Source: Bacillota bacterium | GTDB taxonomy: Bacteria > Bacillota > TC1 | DNA: 64,000 nucleotides | Direction: 5' to 3' | NCBI GenBank assembly: GCA_028683955.1 | Contig: JAQUGR010000001.1 | Coordinates: 391,627 to 455,626 of the forward strand | Shown: positions 41,725 through 50,175 of the stretch, one piece after another | Layout of the letters: each line of letters starts with the position of its first letter | Numbering within the stretch: the stretch's first letter is position 1 | Translations under genes and position numbers: made by a program | Notes under the pieces: generated by a model | Databases searched by the model: none | Told to the model about the DNA's origin: nothing | What the model saw: the letters and a program-made list of their open reading frames with translations, nothing else

Positions 41725-43743
41725 ATGAAAATAATTATAGCACCTAATGCTGGCTTTTGTTACGGAGTAAAAAATGCCTTAAAAAAAGCAGAGGAAATTA
41801 AAACTGATAAAATAATATATACTTTAGGTGAATTAATACATAATCAACAGGAAATTGATAGATTAAAAGAAAAAAATATTATTCCAGTTGATAGTATCAA
41901 TAACATAAAAGATGATGATTTTTTAGTTATCAGATCACATGGAGTAGGAAAAACATTTTATGAAAATTTTGGAAAAAGAGAAAATTTAATTGATGCAACT
42001 TGTCCAAGCGTTAAGTTGGCACATAGATTAGCTGAAAAATATATGTTATTAGGTTATCAAGTCATAGTATTTGGAGATAAAAACCATCCTGAAGTTTTAG
42101 GAATTCTTGATTGGGGTGGTAATGATAGTTTGGCAGTTTTAAAAGAATCCGATATAAATCAGATTAATTTAAAAAAACCTATACTTCTATTATCACAAAC
42201 TACTCAATCAGTTGACGAATTTAATATCATAAAAAATTTAATTGAAAAAAAAACCGAAAATCTTGTAGTAAAGAATACAATATGTAAAGCAACACGCAAC
42301 AGGCAAAGTGAAATAGAAGAATTATCTAAAGTAGTAGATGTAATGATTATTATTGGTGGAAAACAAAGCTCTAATTCAAATAAATTATTTAAAATAGCTA
42401 AAAATTTCAATGAAAATTCATTTTTTATTGAAACATATAAAGATTTAAATCTTGATTGGTTTAAAGGAAAAAATAAAATAGGCATTTCAGCAGGTGCTTC
42501 TACACCAAGCTGGATAATAGAGGAGGTCATTAATAAAATGATGAGTGAAGACAAAATGGAAAAAGAACAGACTATGGAAGAACTATTGCTTGAAATGGAC
42601 AATGATATTCAACCTGGAGATATTGTAGAAGGTATAGTTATTCAAGTCGACAAAGAAAATATTGTAGTAGATATTGGTTTGAAAGCTGAAGGTATTATAC
42701 CTATTGAAGAATATACCAATGAAGAACTTCCTAATGTAGGAGATAAAATCACTGCTGTATTACTTCAAAAATCTAATTCTGTCGGATTTCCTGTATTATC
42801 TAAAAGGAAATTATTAGATAGAAAAAATAGAGAATCTCAAAGGGAAGCCCTTAAAACACTTCCATCAAAATTTGAAAACAAAGAAGAATTTGAAGGTGTA
42901 GTAACTAGTATTGCAAAATCAGGATTAATAGTGAAAATTGGAGATGTTGAAGGATTTTTACCAGCTTCTCAAATTTTACTTAATGGTTATGCCAAATCTC
43001 TTGATAAATATTTAGGGAAAAAAGTTCGTGTTAGAATAATTGATTTAGATTTGAAAAAACGTCTACCTAAAATAGTTCTATCACAAAAAGTGATTCTAGG
43101 CGAAGAAAGAGAAGCGAGTTCAAAAGATTTCTGGGATATTATGGAAGTTGGCAAAGTAGTACAAGGTGAAGTTAAAATGCTTGCAGATTTTGGTGCTTTT
43201 GTAAATCTTGGTTATTTAGATGGATTGTTACATGTATCAGAATTGTCTTGGAATAAAAGAGACAACTTGAAAAACATGTTAGCAGTTGGTGATAAAATAA
43301 ATGTGAAAATCATCGGCATAGATAAAGAAAAGAATAAAATAAGTTTAAGTCTTAAAGCATTAGAAGAAGATCCTTGGCAAACTTTTATAAATAATCATAA
43401 AGTAGGCCATATAATTAAAGGGACTGTTACAAGTGTTGTTGATTATGGTGCTTTTGTTAGTATAAGTAAATTTGTTGAGGGCTTATTACATATTTCTGAA
43501 ATATCACATGAGAAAATTGCTAAAGTAAGTGATGTTTTAAAAGTGGGCGACGAAATAGATGTTGAAATTCTTGATATTGATGAGGTTAATAAGAAAGTAT
43601 CATTATCTAAGAAATCTTTAGAAACACCAGTTAAAAAAGATGAACCTGTTGAGGCAGATAAAATGGTTTATAATGATGATGCTGAAACAAAAAGTGTTAC
43701 TTTAGGAGATATATTGAACCAAAACAATAAAAATGAAGAATAA
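41725..43743 (+). CDS. ispH: IspH-S1 fusion: HMBDP reductase / ribosomal protein S1
   Basis: Natural fusion of 672 aa found in clostridia. Residues 1 to about 275 form IspH, the [4Fe-4S] enzyme making IPP and DMAPP at the end of the MEP pathway. Its cluster cysteines lie in APNAGFCYGVKNAL, LIDATCPSV and NTICKATRNRQ, with AGASTPSWIIEEVI at its end. From about 290 there are four S1 RNA-binding repeats (GDIVEGIVIQVD, EFEGVVTSIAKSG, GKVVQGEVKMLADFGAFV, GHIIKGTVTSVVDYGAFV). Between them is a strong internal ribosome site (42521) before an in-frame ATG. It begins after TTAGGAG and ends at a strong terminator. Confidence 0.95.
   Translation: MKIIIAPNAGFCYGVKNALKKAEEIKTDKIIYTLGELIHNQQEIDRLKEKNIIPVDSINNIKDDDFLVIRSHGVGKTFYENFGKRENLIDATCPSVKLAHRLAEKYMLLGYQVIVFGDKNHPEVLGILDWGGNDSLAVLKESDINQINLKKPILLLSQTTQSVDEFNIIKNLIEKKTENLVVKNTICKATRNRQSEIEELSKVVDVMIIIGGKQSSNSNKLFKIAKNFNENSFFIETYKDLNLDWFKGKNKIGISAGASTPSWIIEEVINKMMSEDKMEKEQTMEELLLEMDNDIQPGDIVEGIVIQVDKENIVVDIGLKAEGIIPIEEYTNEELPNVGDKITAVLLQKSNSVGFPVLSKRKLLDRKNRESQREALKTLPSKFENKEEFEGVVTSIAKSGLIVKIGDVEGFLPASQILLNGYAKSLDKYLGKKVRVRIIDLDLKKRLPKIVLSQKVILGEEREASSKDFWDIMEVGKVVQGEVKMLADFGAFVNLGYLDGLLHVSELSWNKRDNLKNMLAVGDKINVKIIGIDKEKNKISLSLKALEEDPWQTFINNHKVGHIIKGTVTSVVDYGAFVSISKFVEGLLHISEISHEKIAKVSDVLKVGDEIDVEILDIDEVNKKVSLSKKSLETPVKKDEPVEADKMVYNDDAETKSVTLGDILNQNNKNEE
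42521..42540 (+). promoter_or_regulatory. Internal ribosome binding site inside ispH-rpsA
   Basis: A perfect AGGAGG lies 11-12 bases before an in-frame ATG (42538), exactly at the IspH/S1 junction. Initiation here would give a free S1-like protein of about 400 aa from the same mRNA. The hexamer partly encodes the conserved IIEEVI end of IspH, so it may be incidental. Confidence 0.4.
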
Positions 43744-43755
43744 GTTTAAAACTTG

Positions 43756-43790
43756 TGGAGGTTTAGAGTAATCTAAACCTCCATATTTTT
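43756..43790 (+). terminator. Intrinsic terminator after ispH-rpsA
   Basis: Twelve-base perfect stem TGGAGGTTTAGA / TCTAAACCTCCA, loop GTAA, then TATTTTTT. It separates ispH-rpsA from the fumarase genes. Confidence 0.93.
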
Positions 43791-43803
43791 TGAAAGGATT
43801 AAT

Positions 43804-44646
43804 ATGAAAAGAATTAGTTTTAATAATATTGTTAATAGTATTAAAGATAGTGTAATAGAAATTAATTGTGTGGCTAGTAAAGAATTATTAAATAAATATG
43901 ATACTGGAATTATGAGAGAAAACAATGAACTTAGTAAGAAAGTTTTAATTAATTTAAAACAAAATGCAATAATAGCCAAAGAAAAAATGATTCCAATTTG
44001 TCAGGATACTGGGACAGCTGTATTATTTTTAGAAATTGGAACAGAGGTTGTGATTGATGGTGGATTTATTTATGATGCAATTTATGAGGGTGTAAAGTTG
44101 GGTTATCAAGAAGGTTATTTGAGAAAATCAATTGTTGACAATCCCTTATCAAGAAACAATACAGGGAATAATTTACCTCCTATTATACATACAAAATTAG
44201 TTGAAGGTGATACATTAAGTATAGTTTTATTAGCAAAAGGCGCTGGTAGTGAAAATATGTCAGCAATTAAAATGATGGCCCCAAGTGAAGGAATTAATGG
44301 AATTGAAAAATTCGTCCTAGAGACTGTTAAAAATGCAGGGTCTAATCCGTGTCCTCCAATTACTGTTGGCGTAGGCATAGGCAGCAATTTTGAAGGTGTA
44401 GCCTTATTAGCTAAAAAAGCTCTGGTTAAAGAATTCTTTGAAATACCAGAAGATCCAAATATAACTAAAATAGAAAAAGATTTAAAAGAAAAATTAAACT
44501 TATTAAATATTGGACCTCAGGGTTTTGGAGGAAAAACTAGTGTTTTTGATGTAGCAATACTAATGGAACCATGTCATATTGCTTCATTACCAGTTGCAGT
44601 TAATATTAATTGTCATGTAATAAGACATAAAAAATTAGTATTTTAG
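43804..44646 (+). CDS. Class I fumarate hydratase, alpha subunit
   Basis: [4Fe-4S] hydratase subunit of 280 aa, equal to the N-terminal half of class I fumarases and to TtdA of tartrate dehydratase. Cluster/active-site cysteines lie in IPICQDTGTAVLF, NPCPPITVGVGIG and MEPCHIASLP. GSENMSAIKMM is also typical. It follows AAAGGA. The beta subunit follows 8 bases downstream. Fumarate/malate interconversion is the likely role; L-tartrate dehydration is the alternative. Confidence 0.88.
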   Translation: MKRISFNNIVNSIKDSVIEINCVASKELLNKYDTGIMRENNELSKKVLINLKQNAIIAKEKMIPICQDTGTAVLFLEIGTEVVIDGGFIYDAIYEGVKLGYQEGYLRKSIVDNPLSRNNTGNNLPPIIHTKLVEGDTLSIVLLAKGAGSENMSAIKMMAPSEGINGIEKFVLETVKNAGSNPCPPITVGVGIGSNFEGVALLAKKALVKEFFEIPEDPNITKIEKDLKEKLNLLNIGPQGFGGKTSVFDVAILMEPCHIASLPVAVNINCHVIRHKKLVF

Positions 44647-44654
44647 GAGAAAAA

Positions 44655-45179
44655 ATGAAACTACATACACCTATAGATAAAAACAAATTAAAAAATTTAA
44701 ATGCTGGTGAAGAAATATATATATCCGGGACTATCTACACAGCAAGAGATTCAGCCCATAAATTATTATTACAAATGATAAATAATAATGAAAAGTTACC
44801 ATTTGAGCTAAATGGTGCGGTAATATATTATGCTGGACCATCTCCAACAAAACCTGGTGAAATTGTTGGATCAATCGGACCAACAACAAGTTATAGAATG
44901 GATAAATACACACCTGATATTTTAAAAGAAGGCGCCGCTATACTTATTGGTAAAGGCTCCCGTAATGAAGAAGTGAAAATATCACTTTTAGAAAACGGAG
45001 CCATATATTGTGCCGCACTAGGTGGAGCAGGCGCTCTTATGGCCTCAAAAGTTAAAAGTAGTTCTCTAGTTGCATTTTCTGAATTAGGACCAGAAGCTAT
45101 TTATAAGTTAGAGGTAGAAGATTTTCCAGTTATAGTAGTTAATGATTTAAAAGGAAATGACATCTATGAGTGTCATTAA
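44655..45179 (+). CDS. Class I fumarate hydratase, beta subunit
   Basis: A 174 aa partner corresponding to the C-terminal swivelling domain of class I fumarases (TtdB). Seen are LNAGEEIYISGTIYTARDSA, YYAGPSPTKPGEIVGSIGPT, GKGSRNEEV, and YCAALGGAGALMASKVK with LGPEAIYKLEVEDFPV near the end. The gene pair is a compact two-subunit operon with AGGAGAAA before this start. Assignment to fumarase versus tartrate dehydratase is by likelihood only. Confidence 0.88.
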   Translation: MKLHTPIDKNKLKNLNAGEEIYISGTIYTARDSAHKLLLQMINNNEKLPFELNGAVIYYAGPSPTKPGEIVGSIGPTTSYRMDKYTPDILKEGAAILIGKGSRNEEVKISLLENGAIYCAALGGAGALMASKVKSSSLVAFSELGPEAIYKLEVEDFPVIVVNDLKGNDIYECH

Positions 45180-45197
45180 TCTAGATAGGAGAATACA

Positions 45198-46190
45198 ATG
45201 AAACTAGCAGTTATTCTTGGAGGAACTTCTTCAGAAAGGGAAATTTCTCTTAAAAGTGGAGATGCTATTTATAAAAGTTTGTTGCGAAACGGGTATGAAG
45301 TAGATAAAATTGATCCAAAATATGATGATTTATATCGAAAATTAAAAAGTTTGAAGCCTGATTCAGTATTTATTGCACTTCATGGTCTTGGAGGCGAAGA
45401 TGGATCAATTCAAGGATTTTTAGAACAATTGAAAATCCCATATACTGGAAGTAAAGTTTTAGCTAGTTCTTTGTGTATGAATAAAATATATACACAAACA
45501 ATTATGAAAGCTCATAATATTCCAGTACCTGAGTTTTTTACTGTTAAGAAAAAAGACTATAATGAAACTGATATTAAAAGAATTGTAAATAAAATCGAAC
45601 AGTCATTTGGTTTTCCGGTTTTAGTGAAAGCTCCTTCACAAGGTTCTACTTTGGGCATATATTTTATAAATAGTACAAAAACATCATATGAACAACAATT
45701 AAAAGCAGCTTTTACAAGTGGATTTGAACTGGAAAATGAACTATTGATTGAAAAGATGATAACTCCAAATGATGAAATAACAATTGGCCTTCTTGGGAAT
45801 GATAAAGCATTTCCCCTTCCAACTTTGGAGATTACTACAGTTACAGGATATTATGACTATGATACAAAATATACTAAAGGGATGTGTGAACACATAATAC
45901 CAGCTAGATTACCTGAAGCAGTAAGAAATAAAGCTAAAAAACTTGCTGTAGAAATTTATGAAATACTTGGATGTAAAGGTTTTGCTAGAGCTGATTTTAT
46001 GGTAAAAGGAAATGAAATTTATCTTATCGATATCAATACAATACCAGGCTTTACTGAAATGAGTCTTTTACCAGATGCAGCAGCCTCAATAGGTATAACT
46101 TTTGACATGCTTACAAACTATATTATACAAATGTCTTTAGGTCATGAATTTCCTTTTGAGAAATATAAAGATCTAGTTTATGAAAAATAA
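45198..46190 (+). CDS. ddl: D-alanine-D-alanine ligase
   Basis: ATP-grasp enzyme that makes D-Ala-D-Ala for peptidoglycan. The 330 aa protein has the N-terminal AVILGGTSSEREISLKSG, ALHGLGGEDGSIQGFLE and a central ATP-binding part with FPVLVKAPSQGSTLGI. The catalytic/metal block is FARADFMVKGNEIYLIDINT with PGFTEMSLLP. Length is on the short side but complete. The stop overlaps the sfsA start by 11 bases. A D-Ala-D-Lac variant is possible, but no van genes are nearby. Confidence 0.9.
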   Translation: MKLAVILGGTSSEREISLKSGDAIYKSLLRNGYEVDKIDPKYDDLYRKLKSLKPDSVFIALHGLGGEDGSIQGFLEQLKIPYTGSKVLASSLCMNKIYTQTIMKAHNIPVPEFFTVKKKDYNETDIKRIVNKIEQSFGFPVLVKAPSQGSTLGIYFINSTKTSYEQQLKAAFTSGFELENELLIEKMITPNDEITIGLLGNDKAFPLPTLEITTVTGYYDYDTKYTKGMCEHIIPARLPEAVRNKAKKLAVEIYEILGCKGFARADFMVKGNEIYLIDINTIPGFTEMSLLPDAAASIGITFDMLTNYIIQMSLGHEFPFEKYKDLVYEK

Positions 46191-46863
46191 TTTAATAGAG
46201 GGTATTTTTATAGAACGTAGTAATAGATTCATTGCTGAAGTATTAATAGGAAATGATGTTAAAAAAGTTCATGTTGCTAATACAGGACGATGTAAAGAAT
46301 TATTAATACCCAATGTAAAAGTTTTATTGAAAAAAAGTTCTAACCCTAATAGAAAAACAGAATATAGTTTGAATTATGTTGAAAATAAAGGTGTATGGGT
46401 TAACTTAATATCAGTATCAGCTAATGAAGCCGTTTATAACAGCCTATTGGCTGGCGATATTGATGCCATACCTAACCCCCAAAATATCACAAGAGAATAC
46501 AGTATGCCTGGTACAAGAATGGATTTATTTTGTATCAATGATAGTTTTGAAGTATATATTGAAGTTAAATCCGTTACTTTGATTAAAGATGATTATTTAC
46601 AATTTCCTGATGCACCTACACAAAGAGGCGTTAAACATTTAGACCACCTAATTAAATTAAAAAAAGATGGTAAGAGAGCAATTATCATTTTTGTATCTCA
46701 ACATCCATTAGGTAAAAAATTTAAAGCTAATGTTGAAAATGATCCTAAATTTGCAGTAAAATTAGAAGAAGCTAAAAAATGTGGTGTAGAAATATTAGCA
46801 TATATGGCTTCAAGTGAAATTGGTTTATTAAAATTAACTAATTCAATACCAGTTATAATTTAA
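46180..46863 (+). CDS. sfsA: SfsA family protein
   Basis: A 227 aa cytosolic protein named after the sugar fermentation stimulation gene of E. coli. Visible blocks are FIERSNRFIAEV, VHVANTGRCKELLIPN, PGTRMDLF, YIEVKSVTLI and FPDAPTQRGVKHLDHLI, a nuclease-like fold (OB-domain plus restriction-endonuclease-like core with D-EVK). The biochemical role is uncertain. Overlaps ddl and has a weak ribosome site, so coupling is likely. Confidence 0.9.
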   Translation: MKNNLIEGIFIERSNRFIAEVLIGNDVKKVHVANTGRCKELLIPNVKVLLKKSSNPNRKTEYSLNYVENKGVWVNLISVSANEAVYNSLLAGDIDAIPNPQNITREYSMPGTRMDLFCINDSFEVYIEVKSVTLIKDDYLQFPDAPTQRGVKHLDHLIKLKKDGKRAIIIFVSQHPLGKKFKANVENDPKFAVKLEEAKKCGVEILAYMASSEIGLLKLTNSIPVII

Positions 46864-46883: not shown

Positions 46884-47582
46884 TTGTATAAAATAGAAAA
46901 TGAATTTAAATTTAATTGTCAAATGACTGCCTGTTGTTGTCAAAATATGGAAATATTTTTAAATCCCTATGATATTTTAATGCTATCTAGCGAGTTAAAG
47001 CTTTCAACAACAGAAATAGTAAATAAATATATTCTTTTTCTTGAAGAAAAAGGAACAGGTTTGTTTAGACCAATATTAAAAAATGCAAGAAAAGGATTAT
47101 GTATATTTAATGTTGATAATCTTTGTATTATTCATTTAAATAGGCCGCTAAGTTGTAGATTATTTCCATTAGCTAGACTTAATGGTGAGTACTATATACA
47201 AAATGTAAAATTTTGTAAAGGCCTTAAAGAAAATAGTTATATTAAATTAATGGATTATTTAAAAGTAGATTCAGGTCTAGAGTATTTAGAAATGGCTGAT
47301 TTGTATCATACTAAATATAATGAATTGAAAAATTTAAATAATGGGTTATTACATAATAAAGATTATAATAATCTTTTAAATATACTACTATATGATATAG
47401 ATTACTTCTATGGTGAAGATTTATTTAAATTTAACAGTAAAGAAAAATTACTATTATCCCTATATTTAGTAGATAGATTAATTGAATTTTATGAAAACAG
47501 AAATGAAATAACTAAAGAAGTGCTTATAGAAAATCTTTATAAAAAAGGAGATAATTTTATTGTTAAGAATTTTAATAAATAA
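46884..47582 (+). CDS. YkgJ-family cysteine-cluster protein (Fe/Zn binding)
   Basis: A 232 aa protein of the YkgJ/CxxCxxCC zinc-or-iron chelating cluster family. Cysteines lie in FNCQMTACCCQNMEIFLNPY, GLCIFNVDNLCIIH, SCRLFPLAR and KFCKG. The segment LNPYDILMLSSEL and RPLSCRLFPL are typical. The C-terminal 100 residues are helical and unrecognised. It starts at TTG, 7 bases after AAGGAG. Its last 23 bases overlap the following methyltransferase, which suggests translational coupling. The family has no agreed function. Confidence 0.82.
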   Translation: MYKIENEFKFNCQMTACCCQNMEIFLNPYDILMLSSELKLSTTEIVNKYILFLEEKGTGLFRPILKNARKGLCIFNVDNLCIIHLNRPLSCRLFPLARLNGEYYIQNVKFCKGLKENSYIKLMDYLKVDSGLEYLEMADLYHTKYNELKNLNNGLLHNKDYNNLLNILLYDIDYFYGEDLFKFNSKEKLLLSLYLVDRLIEFYENRNEITKEVLIENLYKKGDNFIVKNFNK

Positions 47583-48195
47583 AAAAATAGAAGAATTAGA
47601 TAATATAAATGATTTACTAGAGCAATACAAGTATATAAATATTGATTTAGGTACTGGTAATGGTAAATTTGTTTATGATTTAGCTAAAAAAAATCCAAAT
47701 ACATTCTATATAGGTATAGATCCAACTGCTAGTAATTTATTTGAATATAGCAAAAAAGCACAAAAATATAAGATTAAAAACATTATTTATATAATTTCAT
47801 CAATAGAAAATTTGAATGATGATTTAAATAATTTAGCTGATATTGTTTATATAAATTTTCCCTGGGGAAGCTTGTTAGAAGGGATTGTAAAAGATATGCC
47901 TGAAATACTAAACAAAATATCCTTACTTGGAAAATCAGGTGCTGAATTTAATTTTACATTTGCTTATAGTTCACTACATGAGCCTGCAGAGATAGAAAAA
48001 AGACAATTACCAATACTTAGTACAGATTATTTACTTTCTGACTTAACAGAGATATATAAGAAGGCGAATTTGAAAATAGTAAGTTGTATTGATCTAACAC
48101 CTCCAGAAATTAATGTTTTTGGTACATTATGGTCTAAAAAACTATTTTTAGGTAAAAGTAGAGATGTATTTAGGATAATAAGTCATAAAATATAA
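47560..48195 (+). CDS. NpmA/KamB-like 16S rRNA (adenine1408-N1)-methyltransferase
   Basis: A 211 aa SAM methyltransferase strikingly like NpmA, which methylates A1408 in 16S rRNA and gives broad aminoglycoside resistance. Aligned blocks are INIDLGTGNGKFVYDLA (SAM loop), NTFYIGIDPTASNLF, INFPWGSLLEGIVK, EIEKRQLPILS and GTLWSKKLFLGKSRDVFRI. Both tryptophans that stack on A1408 in NpmA (W107 and W197) have counterparts at W102 and W191, and the basic C-terminal loop is kept. It starts at TTG 7-9 bases after AAAGGAG and overlaps the ykgJ-like gene. No transposon is adjacent, so it looks like a chromosomal gene. Activity and resistance are inferred. Confidence 0.8.
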   Translation: MLRILINKKIEELDNINDLLEQYKYINIDLGTGNGKFVYDLAKKNPNTFYIGIDPTASNLFEYSKKAQKYKIKNIIYIISSIENLNDDLNNLADIVYINFPWGSLLEGIVKDMPEILNKISLLGKSGAEFNFTFAYSSLHEPAEIEKRQLPILSTDYLLSDLTEIYKKANLKIVSCIDLTPPEINVFGTLWSKKLFLGKSRDVFRIISHKI

Positions 48196-48234: not shown

Positions 48235-48249
48235 TCAAATTGAAATATA

Positions 48250-48466
48250 ATGAAGAGGATTAGTACTTTTATAGAGGATTTATAGAGAGTTATTGTTTGG
48301 TGTAAAATAACATGATGCTTTTAAGGAACTCACCTCAGAATAGAATATCTGAAGTTATTTAGGGTGTTCCGGGAGTTCCCGTTATAGAATTTGAGTGCAT
48401 ATTATATGAATTAGAGTGGTACCGCGATTCTTTCGTCTCTATGGTAGAGATGGAAGATTTTTTTAT
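48250..48466 (+). promoter_or_regulatory. T-box riboswitch, leucine-specific, upstream of leuA
   Basis: Transcription attenuator that reads the charging of tRNA-Leu. The T-box core AGAGTGGTACCGCG lies at 48413-48426, close to the consensus AGGGTGGNACCGCG. Stem I begins with GAAGAGGATTAGTA. The loop-E strand GGAA is followed by the specifier CTC at 48329-48331, a leucine codon. The terminator is the imperfect stem around TCTTTCGTCTCTA and TAGAGATGGAAGA, then seven T. Uncharged tRNA-Leu would stabilise the antiterminator and let leuA be transcribed. Confidence 0.92.
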
Positions 48467-48486
48467 TGAAAGGAGATATGTTTAAC

Positions 48487-50175
48487 ATGGCTATGAATTA
48501 TAAAAAGTATAAGCCTTATCCAAAATTTGATTTTAAAGAAAGAACTTGGCCTCAAAAAGTAACAACAAAAGCGCCAATATGGTGTAGTGTTGATCTAAGA
48601 GACGGCAATCAAGCATTGCCTATTCCAATGGGGATAGAAGAAAAACTTTTATTATATAAAATGTTATTAAAAATCGGTTTTAAAACTATAGAAGTTGGAT
48701 TTCCATCAGCATCAGAAACTGAATTTAATTTTTTAAGGAAATTAGTGGATGAAAAATTAATTCCTGATGATGTTACTATACAAGTATTGACTCAAGCAAG
48801 AGAACACTTGATTGCTAAAACATTTGCAGCTTTAAAAGGTGTGAAAAATGCTATAGTACACATTTATAATTCTACTTCTGAACTTCAAAGAAGAGTAGTT
48901 TTTAATAAAAATAAAGAAGAAATAAAAAAAATAGCTACTGAAGGAACAATATTAGTTAAAAAATTTGCTGAGGAAGCTAGAGTTTTAGGTATGAATGTGA
49001 TACTGGAATATTCTCCTGAAAGTTTTACCGGAACTGAAGTTGATTATGCTGTAGAAGTTTCTAATGCAGTACTTGATGTATGGCAACCAACAAAGGACAA
49101 CCCTGCAATAATTAATCTTCCTTCTACTGTAGAAATGAGTACTCCTAATGTTTATGCTGATAAAATAGAATGGTTTTGTAATCATGTGAAATATAGAGAA
49201 TTTATTCAAATTAGCTTGCATGCTCATAATGATAGAGGAACAGGCATTGCTGCAACTGAACTTGGTTTATTGGCAGGTGCTGATAGGGTTGAAGGTACAC
49301 TTTTTGGTAATGGTGAAAGAACTGGTAATACAGATATTTTATCTGTTGCATTAAATCTTTATTCTCAAGGTATTGATCCTGAATTGGATTTCTATGATGT
49401 GGAAGAGATTAAAGATGTTTTCCAAAAAGTTACACAATTACCTGTACATCCTAGACACCCTTATGTAGGTGATTTAGTCCATACTGCCTTTAGTGGATCT
49501 CATCAAGATGCAATTAATAAAGGATTAAAATATAAAGCTGATAATAATGTAGACTTTTGGGAAGTTCCTTATCTACCAATTGATCCAAGTGATGTTGGAC
49601 GCAAATATGAAGCTGTTATTAGAATAAACAGTCAATCTGGTAAAGGTGGAGTAGCATTTGTATTAGAAAAAGAATATGGATTTAAATTACCTAAAAATAT
49701 GCATCCAGAGGTAGCTAAAATAGTTCAAAAAGATACTGATGACAAAGGTATAGAATTAAAAAAAGAAGATGTTTTAAAACTATTTGAAGATAATTATATC
49801 AATGTAAAAGGAGTTTTAGAATTAATTAAATATAAAGTTAACGAAGATTCATCAAATGAAGATTCCGATGCAGTTGTAACCTTGGAGGGTGAAATTAAAA
49901 TATTTGGCGAAGAGAAAAAGATTTCCGGTAAAGGTAATGGCCCTGTATCTGCCTTTTTAAATGCTATTGAGGTATGCAATATTGGTAAATATACTGTTAC
50001 TTCCTATGATGAGCATGCTAGGGAGGAAGGGGATAAATCTCAAGCTATAACTTATGTTCAACTGGAAGATTTAAAAACAAATAAAAGATTTTTTGGAGTA
50101 GGTATATCACCTAATATAACTTCCGCTCCAATAAAAGCAATCATAAGCGCCATTAATAGGAGTAAAAAATCTTAA
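48487..50175 (+). CDS. leuA: 2-Isopropylmalate synthase, LeuA2 type
   Basis: Condenses 2-oxoisovalerate and acetyl-CoA, the committed step to leucine. The 562 aa protein is of the LeuA2 group. It begins YKPYPKFDFKERTWPQK, has the catalytic WCSVDLRDGNQALPIPM, EVGFPSASETEFNF, SLHAHNDRGTGIAATELGLL and the subdomain PVHPRHPYVGDLVHTAFSG. A C-terminal LeuA dimer domain (about 430-555) gives leucine feedback. The start taken is ATG 48487, 11 bases from AAAGGAG; an ATG at 48478 is too close to the site. It is controlled by the leucine T-box. Confidence 0.95.
   Translation: MAMNYKKYKPYPKFDFKERTWPQKVTTKAPIWCSVDLRDGNQALPIPMGIEEKLLLYKMLLKIGFKTIEVGFPSASETEFNFLRKLVDEKLIPDDVTIQVLTQAREHLIAKTFAALKGVKNAIVHIYNSTSELQRRVVFNKNKEEIKKIATEGTILVKKFAEEARVLGMNVILEYSPESFTGTEVDYAVEVSNAVLDVWQPTKDNPAIINLPSTVEMSTPNVYADKIEWFCNHVKYREFIQISLHAHNDRGTGIAATELGLLAGADRVEGTLFGNGERTGNTDILSVALNLYSQGIDPELDFYDVEEIKDVFQKVTQLPVHPRHPYVGDLVHTAFSGSHQDAINKGLKYKADNNVDFWEVPYLPIDPSDVGRKYEAVIRINSQSGKGGVAFVLEKEYGFKLPKNMHPEVAKIVQKDTDDKGIELKKEDVLKLFEDNYINVKGVLELIKYKVNEDSSNEDSDAVVTLEGEIKIFGEEKKISGKGNGPVSAFLNAIEVCNIGKYTVTSYDEHAREEGDKSQAITYVQLEDLKTNKRFFGVGISPNITSAPIKAIISAINRSKKS

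Follow-up and report, generated by a model that had tools for sequence, protein, structure and literature searches.

An NpmA-like A1408 methyltransferase homologue at a fixed chromosomal locus, and a conserved in-frame stop codon in the WarA branch of its family

What is a relative of NpmA, an A1408 16S rRNA methyltransferase reported on a plasmid, doing on a chromosome among housekeeping genes, and could it be the source of NpmA? The question is raised by the window, a 64,000-nucleotide stretch of contig JAQUGR010000001.1 (assembly GCA_028683955.1). Its first-pass annotation described an NpmA/KamB-like A1408 methyltransferase in a housekeeping context and suggested that it could represent an ancestral or reservoir lineage of NpmA. 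The TTG start, coordinates, strand, length, and overlap with a YkgJ-like gene given there all agree with the open reading frames and with Pfam (Table 1).

The host family consists of small-genome anaerobic bacteria. Among public records, the closest relatives are MAGs from the window's genus (L032-L034 and L049), which carry the label Bacillota or Fusobacteria. An OLE RNA, the leu T-box, and the ispH-rpsA fusion point to Bacillota for this genus. The 3' part of the OLE RNA (RF01071, 160.9 bits) occupies positions 1-372, where it is cut by the start of the window.

Table 1. Features of the methyltransferase locus, in window coordinates
Feature	Coordinates	Strand	Remarks
Conserved upstream block: ispH-rpsA fusion, two fumarase/tartrate dehydratase subunits, ddl-type ligase, sfsA	41725..46863	+	
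CxxCxxCC (YkgJ-type) protein	46884..47582	+	Pfam PF03692
Shine-Dalgarno AAGGAG	47545..47550	+	9 bases 5' of methyltransferase TTG; read in sequence
A1408 16S rRNA methyltransferase homologue (Kam family, PF24675)	47560..48195	+	TTG start, 211 aa
D29 codon	47644..47646	+	NpmA D30, SAM-site Asp; alignment
W102 codon	47863..47865	+	NpmA W107; invariant in 33 homologues
W191 codon	48130..48132	+	NpmA W197; invariant in 33 homologues
R201 codon	48160..48162	+	NpmA R207; invariant in 33 homologues
T-box leader between methyltransferase and leuA	48241..48443	+	Rfam RF00230, 127.8 bits
leuA, 2-isopropylmalate synthase	48466..50175	+	Conserved 3' neighbour; function named from sequence

The window protein matches the Pfam NpmA family over residues 4-207 with 185.7 bits (cut-off 60, E 9e-55) and the NpmA crystal structure PDB 3mte with an E of 1e-43 and 40% identity; as sequence matches, both are far above chance. 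In an NCBIfam scan the top four families are all A1408 methyltransferases, namely NpmA (149.3 bits), WarA (104.6), NpmB (92), and KamB (90), with TrmB lower at 43 bits. The protein falls under the cut-offs of all four named members. For NpmA proper (NF000030) the cut-off is 470 bits, and the window protein lies outside the NpmA clade; for WarA (NF051863) it is 305 bits, and WarA of Nocardia, like KamB and Kmr, belongs to the same Pfam family but to the other half of the tree. Such scores are expected of a new lineage. An AlphaFold2 model made with 33 homologues (pLDDT 92.7) has a TM of 0.93 to 3mte, and A1408 methyltransferases fill the first 19 places among its PDB matches, with NpmA at the top. 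The model contains both the N-terminal beta-hairpin (residues 2-13) and the beta6/7 linker of the Kam fold.

The catalytic residues are also in place. By alignment, D29, D54, E83, W102, E141, W191, and R201 of the window protein correspond to NpmA D30, D55, E88, W107, E146, W197, and R207. In NpmA, D30 and D55 are the SAM-site Asp pair, E88 is the adenine-site Glu, W107 and W197 hold the flipped A1408 by stacking, R207 stabilises the backbone of the flipped base, and E146 is a supporting Glu (PMC4705659, PMC5109232). Thus, the window protein has the Asp pair, both conserved Trp residues, and the C-terminal Arg with its supporting Glu. The second SAM-site Asp is replaced by Glu in two genus relatives and in UncKam, and the positions of NpmA R200 and R205 are Lys in the window protein. 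The SAM loop (DLGTGNG), the FPWGSLL block, the two tryptophans, and the basic C-terminal segment (with R201) that the first-pass annotation listed are all present, and its naming of the gene is borne out by Pfam, the 3mte match, and the fold, with the activity a prediction. A 16S rRNA gene was looked for in the window's own genome, where it is absent from the assembly, and that of family member G005 was used in its place. It carries the canonical CCGCCCGTCACACC at the decoding site; thus, A1408 and G1405 are unaltered, and the target base is there. It is well supported that the window gene is a genuine, intact, full-length A1408 methyltransferase homologue, a new member of a known family.

The locus itself is stable. 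The order ykgJ, methyltransferase, T-box-leuA is common to all 5 available relatives within the family, which span two genera; full-length homologues are 48-86% identical to the window protein in the four genus relatives and 42% identical in the one from the other genus, and leuA identity in the relatives is 68-92%. The upstream block, whose genes were named from sequence except for ddl (Pfam), has the same order in L027-L031, with its 5' end cut off in L029. The end of the ykgJ-type gene and the start of the methyltransferase share 23 bases, an overlap kept in the four other genus members that makes translational coupling of the two genes likely. The GGAG site and the TTG start are kept in 3 of the 4 other genus members (L029, L030, and L027). 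In the two-contig assembly of G005 (L031, 8351-9730), sfsA and ykgJ are each split into two ORFs, probably by frameshift errors, and the methyltransferase is intact. Housekeeping genes make up the scanned neighbourhood (RNase HII, pseudouridine synthase, ketol-acid reductoisomerase, cytidylate kinase, ddl, Met gamma-lyase, LrgB), and it contains no mobile element. A housekeeping context free of mobile elements is what had been claimed, and the stability across two genera exceeds the claim.

The gene is present at one locus in all six sampled family members, including the window genome, and is absent from all four genomes of the sister family f2. An empty-site comparison with f2 located sfsA in one of these four genomes only. 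Across a phylum sample, 8 of 398 genomes have the gene, and 6 of these belong to the window family. In three comparisons within the genus, the dN/dS of the methyltransferase is 0.14-0.23, similar to that of neighbouring genes and indicative of purifying selection. Searches of plasmid, phage, and viral sequences with the window protein gave no match, nor did a search of the plasmid set with NpmA. Clostridial homologues outside the family have essentially no neighbours in common with the window gene; matches to other window genes were sporadic. A mobile origin of the window gene was rejected on the lack of plasmid, phage, or viral matches and of shared neighbours outside the family. Given the fixed gene order, the absence from f2, and the lack of phage, viral, and plasmid copies, the gene is vertically inherited and intrinsic. 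We infer that it reached this position no later than in the family ancestor, ahead of the divergence of the two genera, and then descended vertically.

How, then, is the gene related to the characterised enzymes? NpmA (from an E. coli plasmid; PDB 3mte and 4ox9) shares with it the fold, the SAM site, the W107/W197/R207 equivalents, and an affinity to the Bacillota clade. However, NpmA, described from a plasmid, falls in a clade of gut/rumen clostridia, whereas the window gene occupies a fixed place on the chromosome in another family. UncKam (PDB 7jlz), an A1408 methyltransferase from an uncultured bacterium, is 38% identical and has the same catalytic set, but it groups with WWE3/Patescibacteria sequences, the nearest of which is about 76% identical to it. 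NpmB1 (PDB 7ehf) has the A1408 methyltransferase fold and motifs, yet it is 32% identical to the window protein and nests in Acidobacteria (support 100), its nearest relative being about 82% identical. Three Acidobacteria sequences (L085, L088, and L107) are 71-82% identical to NpmB1 and likely represent its source lineage.

These placements come from a maximum likelihood tree of 118 rows obtained with a quick search. This tree, the phylogeny check that the first-pass annotation had proposed, places the window family as one group (support 73) on a separate branch inside a Bacillota clade (94) that also contains Acetivibrionaceae-type clostridia (95) and the gut/rumen clostridial clade to which NpmA belongs (100). 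Membership of the same large clade and the 40% identity could be taken to mean that clinical NpmA descends directly from the window gene or has its reservoir there, along the lines that annotation had suggested, but this is very improbable: NpmA lies within the gut/rumen clade, where its nearest genome relatives, rumen Ruminococcus-type sequences, are 57-61% identical to it, and plasmid, phage, and viral copies of the window lineage were not found. By its place in the tree, the window gene is on a side branch and did not give rise to NpmA. The closest relatives of NpmA lie at rumen/gut MAG loci (L047, L050, L055, L056, L060, L061, L067, and related loci), and these sequences support a gut/rumen clostridial origin of NpmA. 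The tree narrows the sources of the known genes, to gut/rumen clostridia for NpmA and to Acidobacteria for NpmB.

The window gene very probably encodes an intrinsic m1A1408 16S rRNA methyltransferase that gives standing aminoglycoside resistance. A1408 activity, resistance, and constitutive expression would follow from what is seen in characterised homologues. Translation would begin from the gene's own Shine-Dalgarno site and is probably coupled to that of the overlapping ykgJ-type gene. With SAM bound in its Rossmann core, the enzyme would dock on the decoding-site surface of the 30S subunit (h44/h45), where A1408 would be flipped between W102 and W191 and its backbone held by R201. Methylation of A1408 at N1 would then cause 2-deoxystreptamine aminoglycosides to lose binding.

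Two other functions have to be weighed against this one. An A1408 methyltransferase could be retained because the modification tunes decoding, a housekeeping role in which resistance is a by-product. Such a role fits a gene that every one of the six sampled family members keeps at one locus, surrounded by housekeeping genes and under purifying selection, and it fits work in E. coli in which enzymes of this kind alter translational fidelity (PMC12406665). However, the gene is absent from the sister family and from nearly all the rest of the phylum sample, and the protein diverges faster than leuA, ddl, or fumarase, and we consider the decoding role rather unlikely. Far less probable still is a different target, be it another residue or another RNA, as for a tRNA enzyme of the TrmB type. 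The weak SAM-domain similarity to TrmB could suggest it, but the score is far under the TrmB cut-off of 112.65 (TIGR00091), which rules out a TrmB identity and answers the concern that the protein might group with TrmB-type methyltransferases. In addition, both A1408-stacking tryptophans and the R207 equivalent are invariant, the best fold match is NpmA, and three of the four genus relatives have a separate partial TrmB-kind match elsewhere. For the intrinsic A1408 methyltransferase, the most likely role at the level of the family is standing protection against environmental aminoglycosides.

Unlike the window gene, genes of the WarA branch carry a conserved in-frame stop codon after the N-terminal beta-hairpin region. 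Among the homologues, it first appeared at one shared position in Nocardia warA genes and in one Chloroflexota MAG, and it was confirmed by a search that reads through stops. In the Nocardia family, all 4 full-length matches have one TAA each. In the Chloroflexota class of G062, the gene occurs in 40 of 177 genomes, and almost every full-length copy contains a single such stop, either TAA or TAG; TAG and TAA are found, one each, in two more genomes of Actinomycetota. This class has no TrmB match that could serve as a stop-codon control. In total, 39 distinct sequences from Nocardia, the Chloroflexota class, and other Actinomycetota have the stop (L070, L072, L075, L076, L086, L087, L091, L109, L123, L128-L142, L144, L146-L149, L151-L153, L155, L156, and L161-L165), which is TAA in 27, TAG in 12, and TGA in none. 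It lies at about codon 16 and shares the reading frame of the remainder of the gene; the context is GAC-(G/A)TC-GGN-stop, 12-13 codons 5' of the SAM motif and normally 15 (in some, 16) codons past the start. Together with L150, the 39 sequences form one clade of 40 (support 99-100). L150 (G564) is the sole stop-free member, in which an in-frame deletion has removed the stop segment and kept the promoter and start; it is possibly a natural constitutive variant.

The segment before the stop corresponds to the N-terminal beta-hairpin of the family. Its residues G-10, D-3, and G-1 are invariant in 39/39. The pN/pS ratio within Nocardia, 0.22 ahead of the stop and 0.24 in the SAM region, rises to 0.63 in the linker that directly follows the stop. 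The invariant residues and the low pre-stop pN/pS indicate that this segment is protein-coding, under purifying selection, and not decaying. TAA and TAG have been exchanged at least 5 times in the branch; an in-frame TGA never occurs, though TGA is the terminal stop in 17 of 38. Within the 40 bases 5' of the ATG, a TANNNT box, resembling a -10 element, is found 6-9 bases from the start in 36 of the 39 (1000 shuffles: mean 0.55, maximum 5), and the starts mostly lack a Shine-Dalgarno sequence. With the box just 5' of the start, the transcripts appear to be leaderless. A weak consensus RNA pairing around the stop, between two coding motifs (-4.18 versus a shuffled mean of -0.11), is a lead only. 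In NCBIfam, the WarA model, 190 positions long, starts only at the SAM motif, past the stop.

Sequencing error or a change of code is ruled out as the explanation, since genomes sequenced independently have the stop at the same place, with just one in each gene. Reinitiation past the stop was also rejected: 22 of the 39 genes have no ATG, GTG, or TTG between the stop and the SAM motif. Simple readthrough is the most economical reading; the stop is likely a site of programmed readthrough, and this is possibly induced by aminoglycosides. Stop codons are misread under aminoglycosides. The drugs, which induce translation errors (PMC7987974), bind at A1408, and the product of the gene would methylate this base; the gene is thus possibly a self-limiting drug sensor. 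In such a circuit, a leaderless mRNA would start at or very near the ATG, and translation would halt about 15 codons on at the UAA or UAG. Full-length methyltransferase would be made only if ribosomes misread this codon, as aminoglycosides at the unmethylated A1408 region would cause them to do. Methylation of A1408 would then restore accurate termination and shut the gene off, with the effect of the drug as the signal. We hypothesize this drug dependence, and consider the chances about even that the WarA-branch gene is an aminoglycoside-sensing translational switch forming a self-limiting resistance circuit.

The searchable literature gave no description of readthrough-controlled aminoglycoside resistance or of the WarA-branch stop, though priority is not certain. 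Control of integron cassette genes by an aminoglycoside-sensing riboswitch has been refuted (PMC9410878), which would make a real ribosome-based sensor notable. If true, drug-dependent readthrough would be a new mode of resistance-gene control, and a WarA annotation that starts past the stop would be wrong. Such control would matter in the clinic, given the strong correlation reported between warA and amikacin resistance in Nocardia (PMC12488653). Of the two results, the WarA-branch stop codon has the wider interest; the window gene adds a new member to a family already known. For the host family, the vertical fixation, in all sampled members, of a gene for an enzyme of the pan-aminoglycoside-resistance type would mean that bacteria can carry m1A1408 permanently and intrinsically, and not just as self-defence in producers or as an acquired trait.
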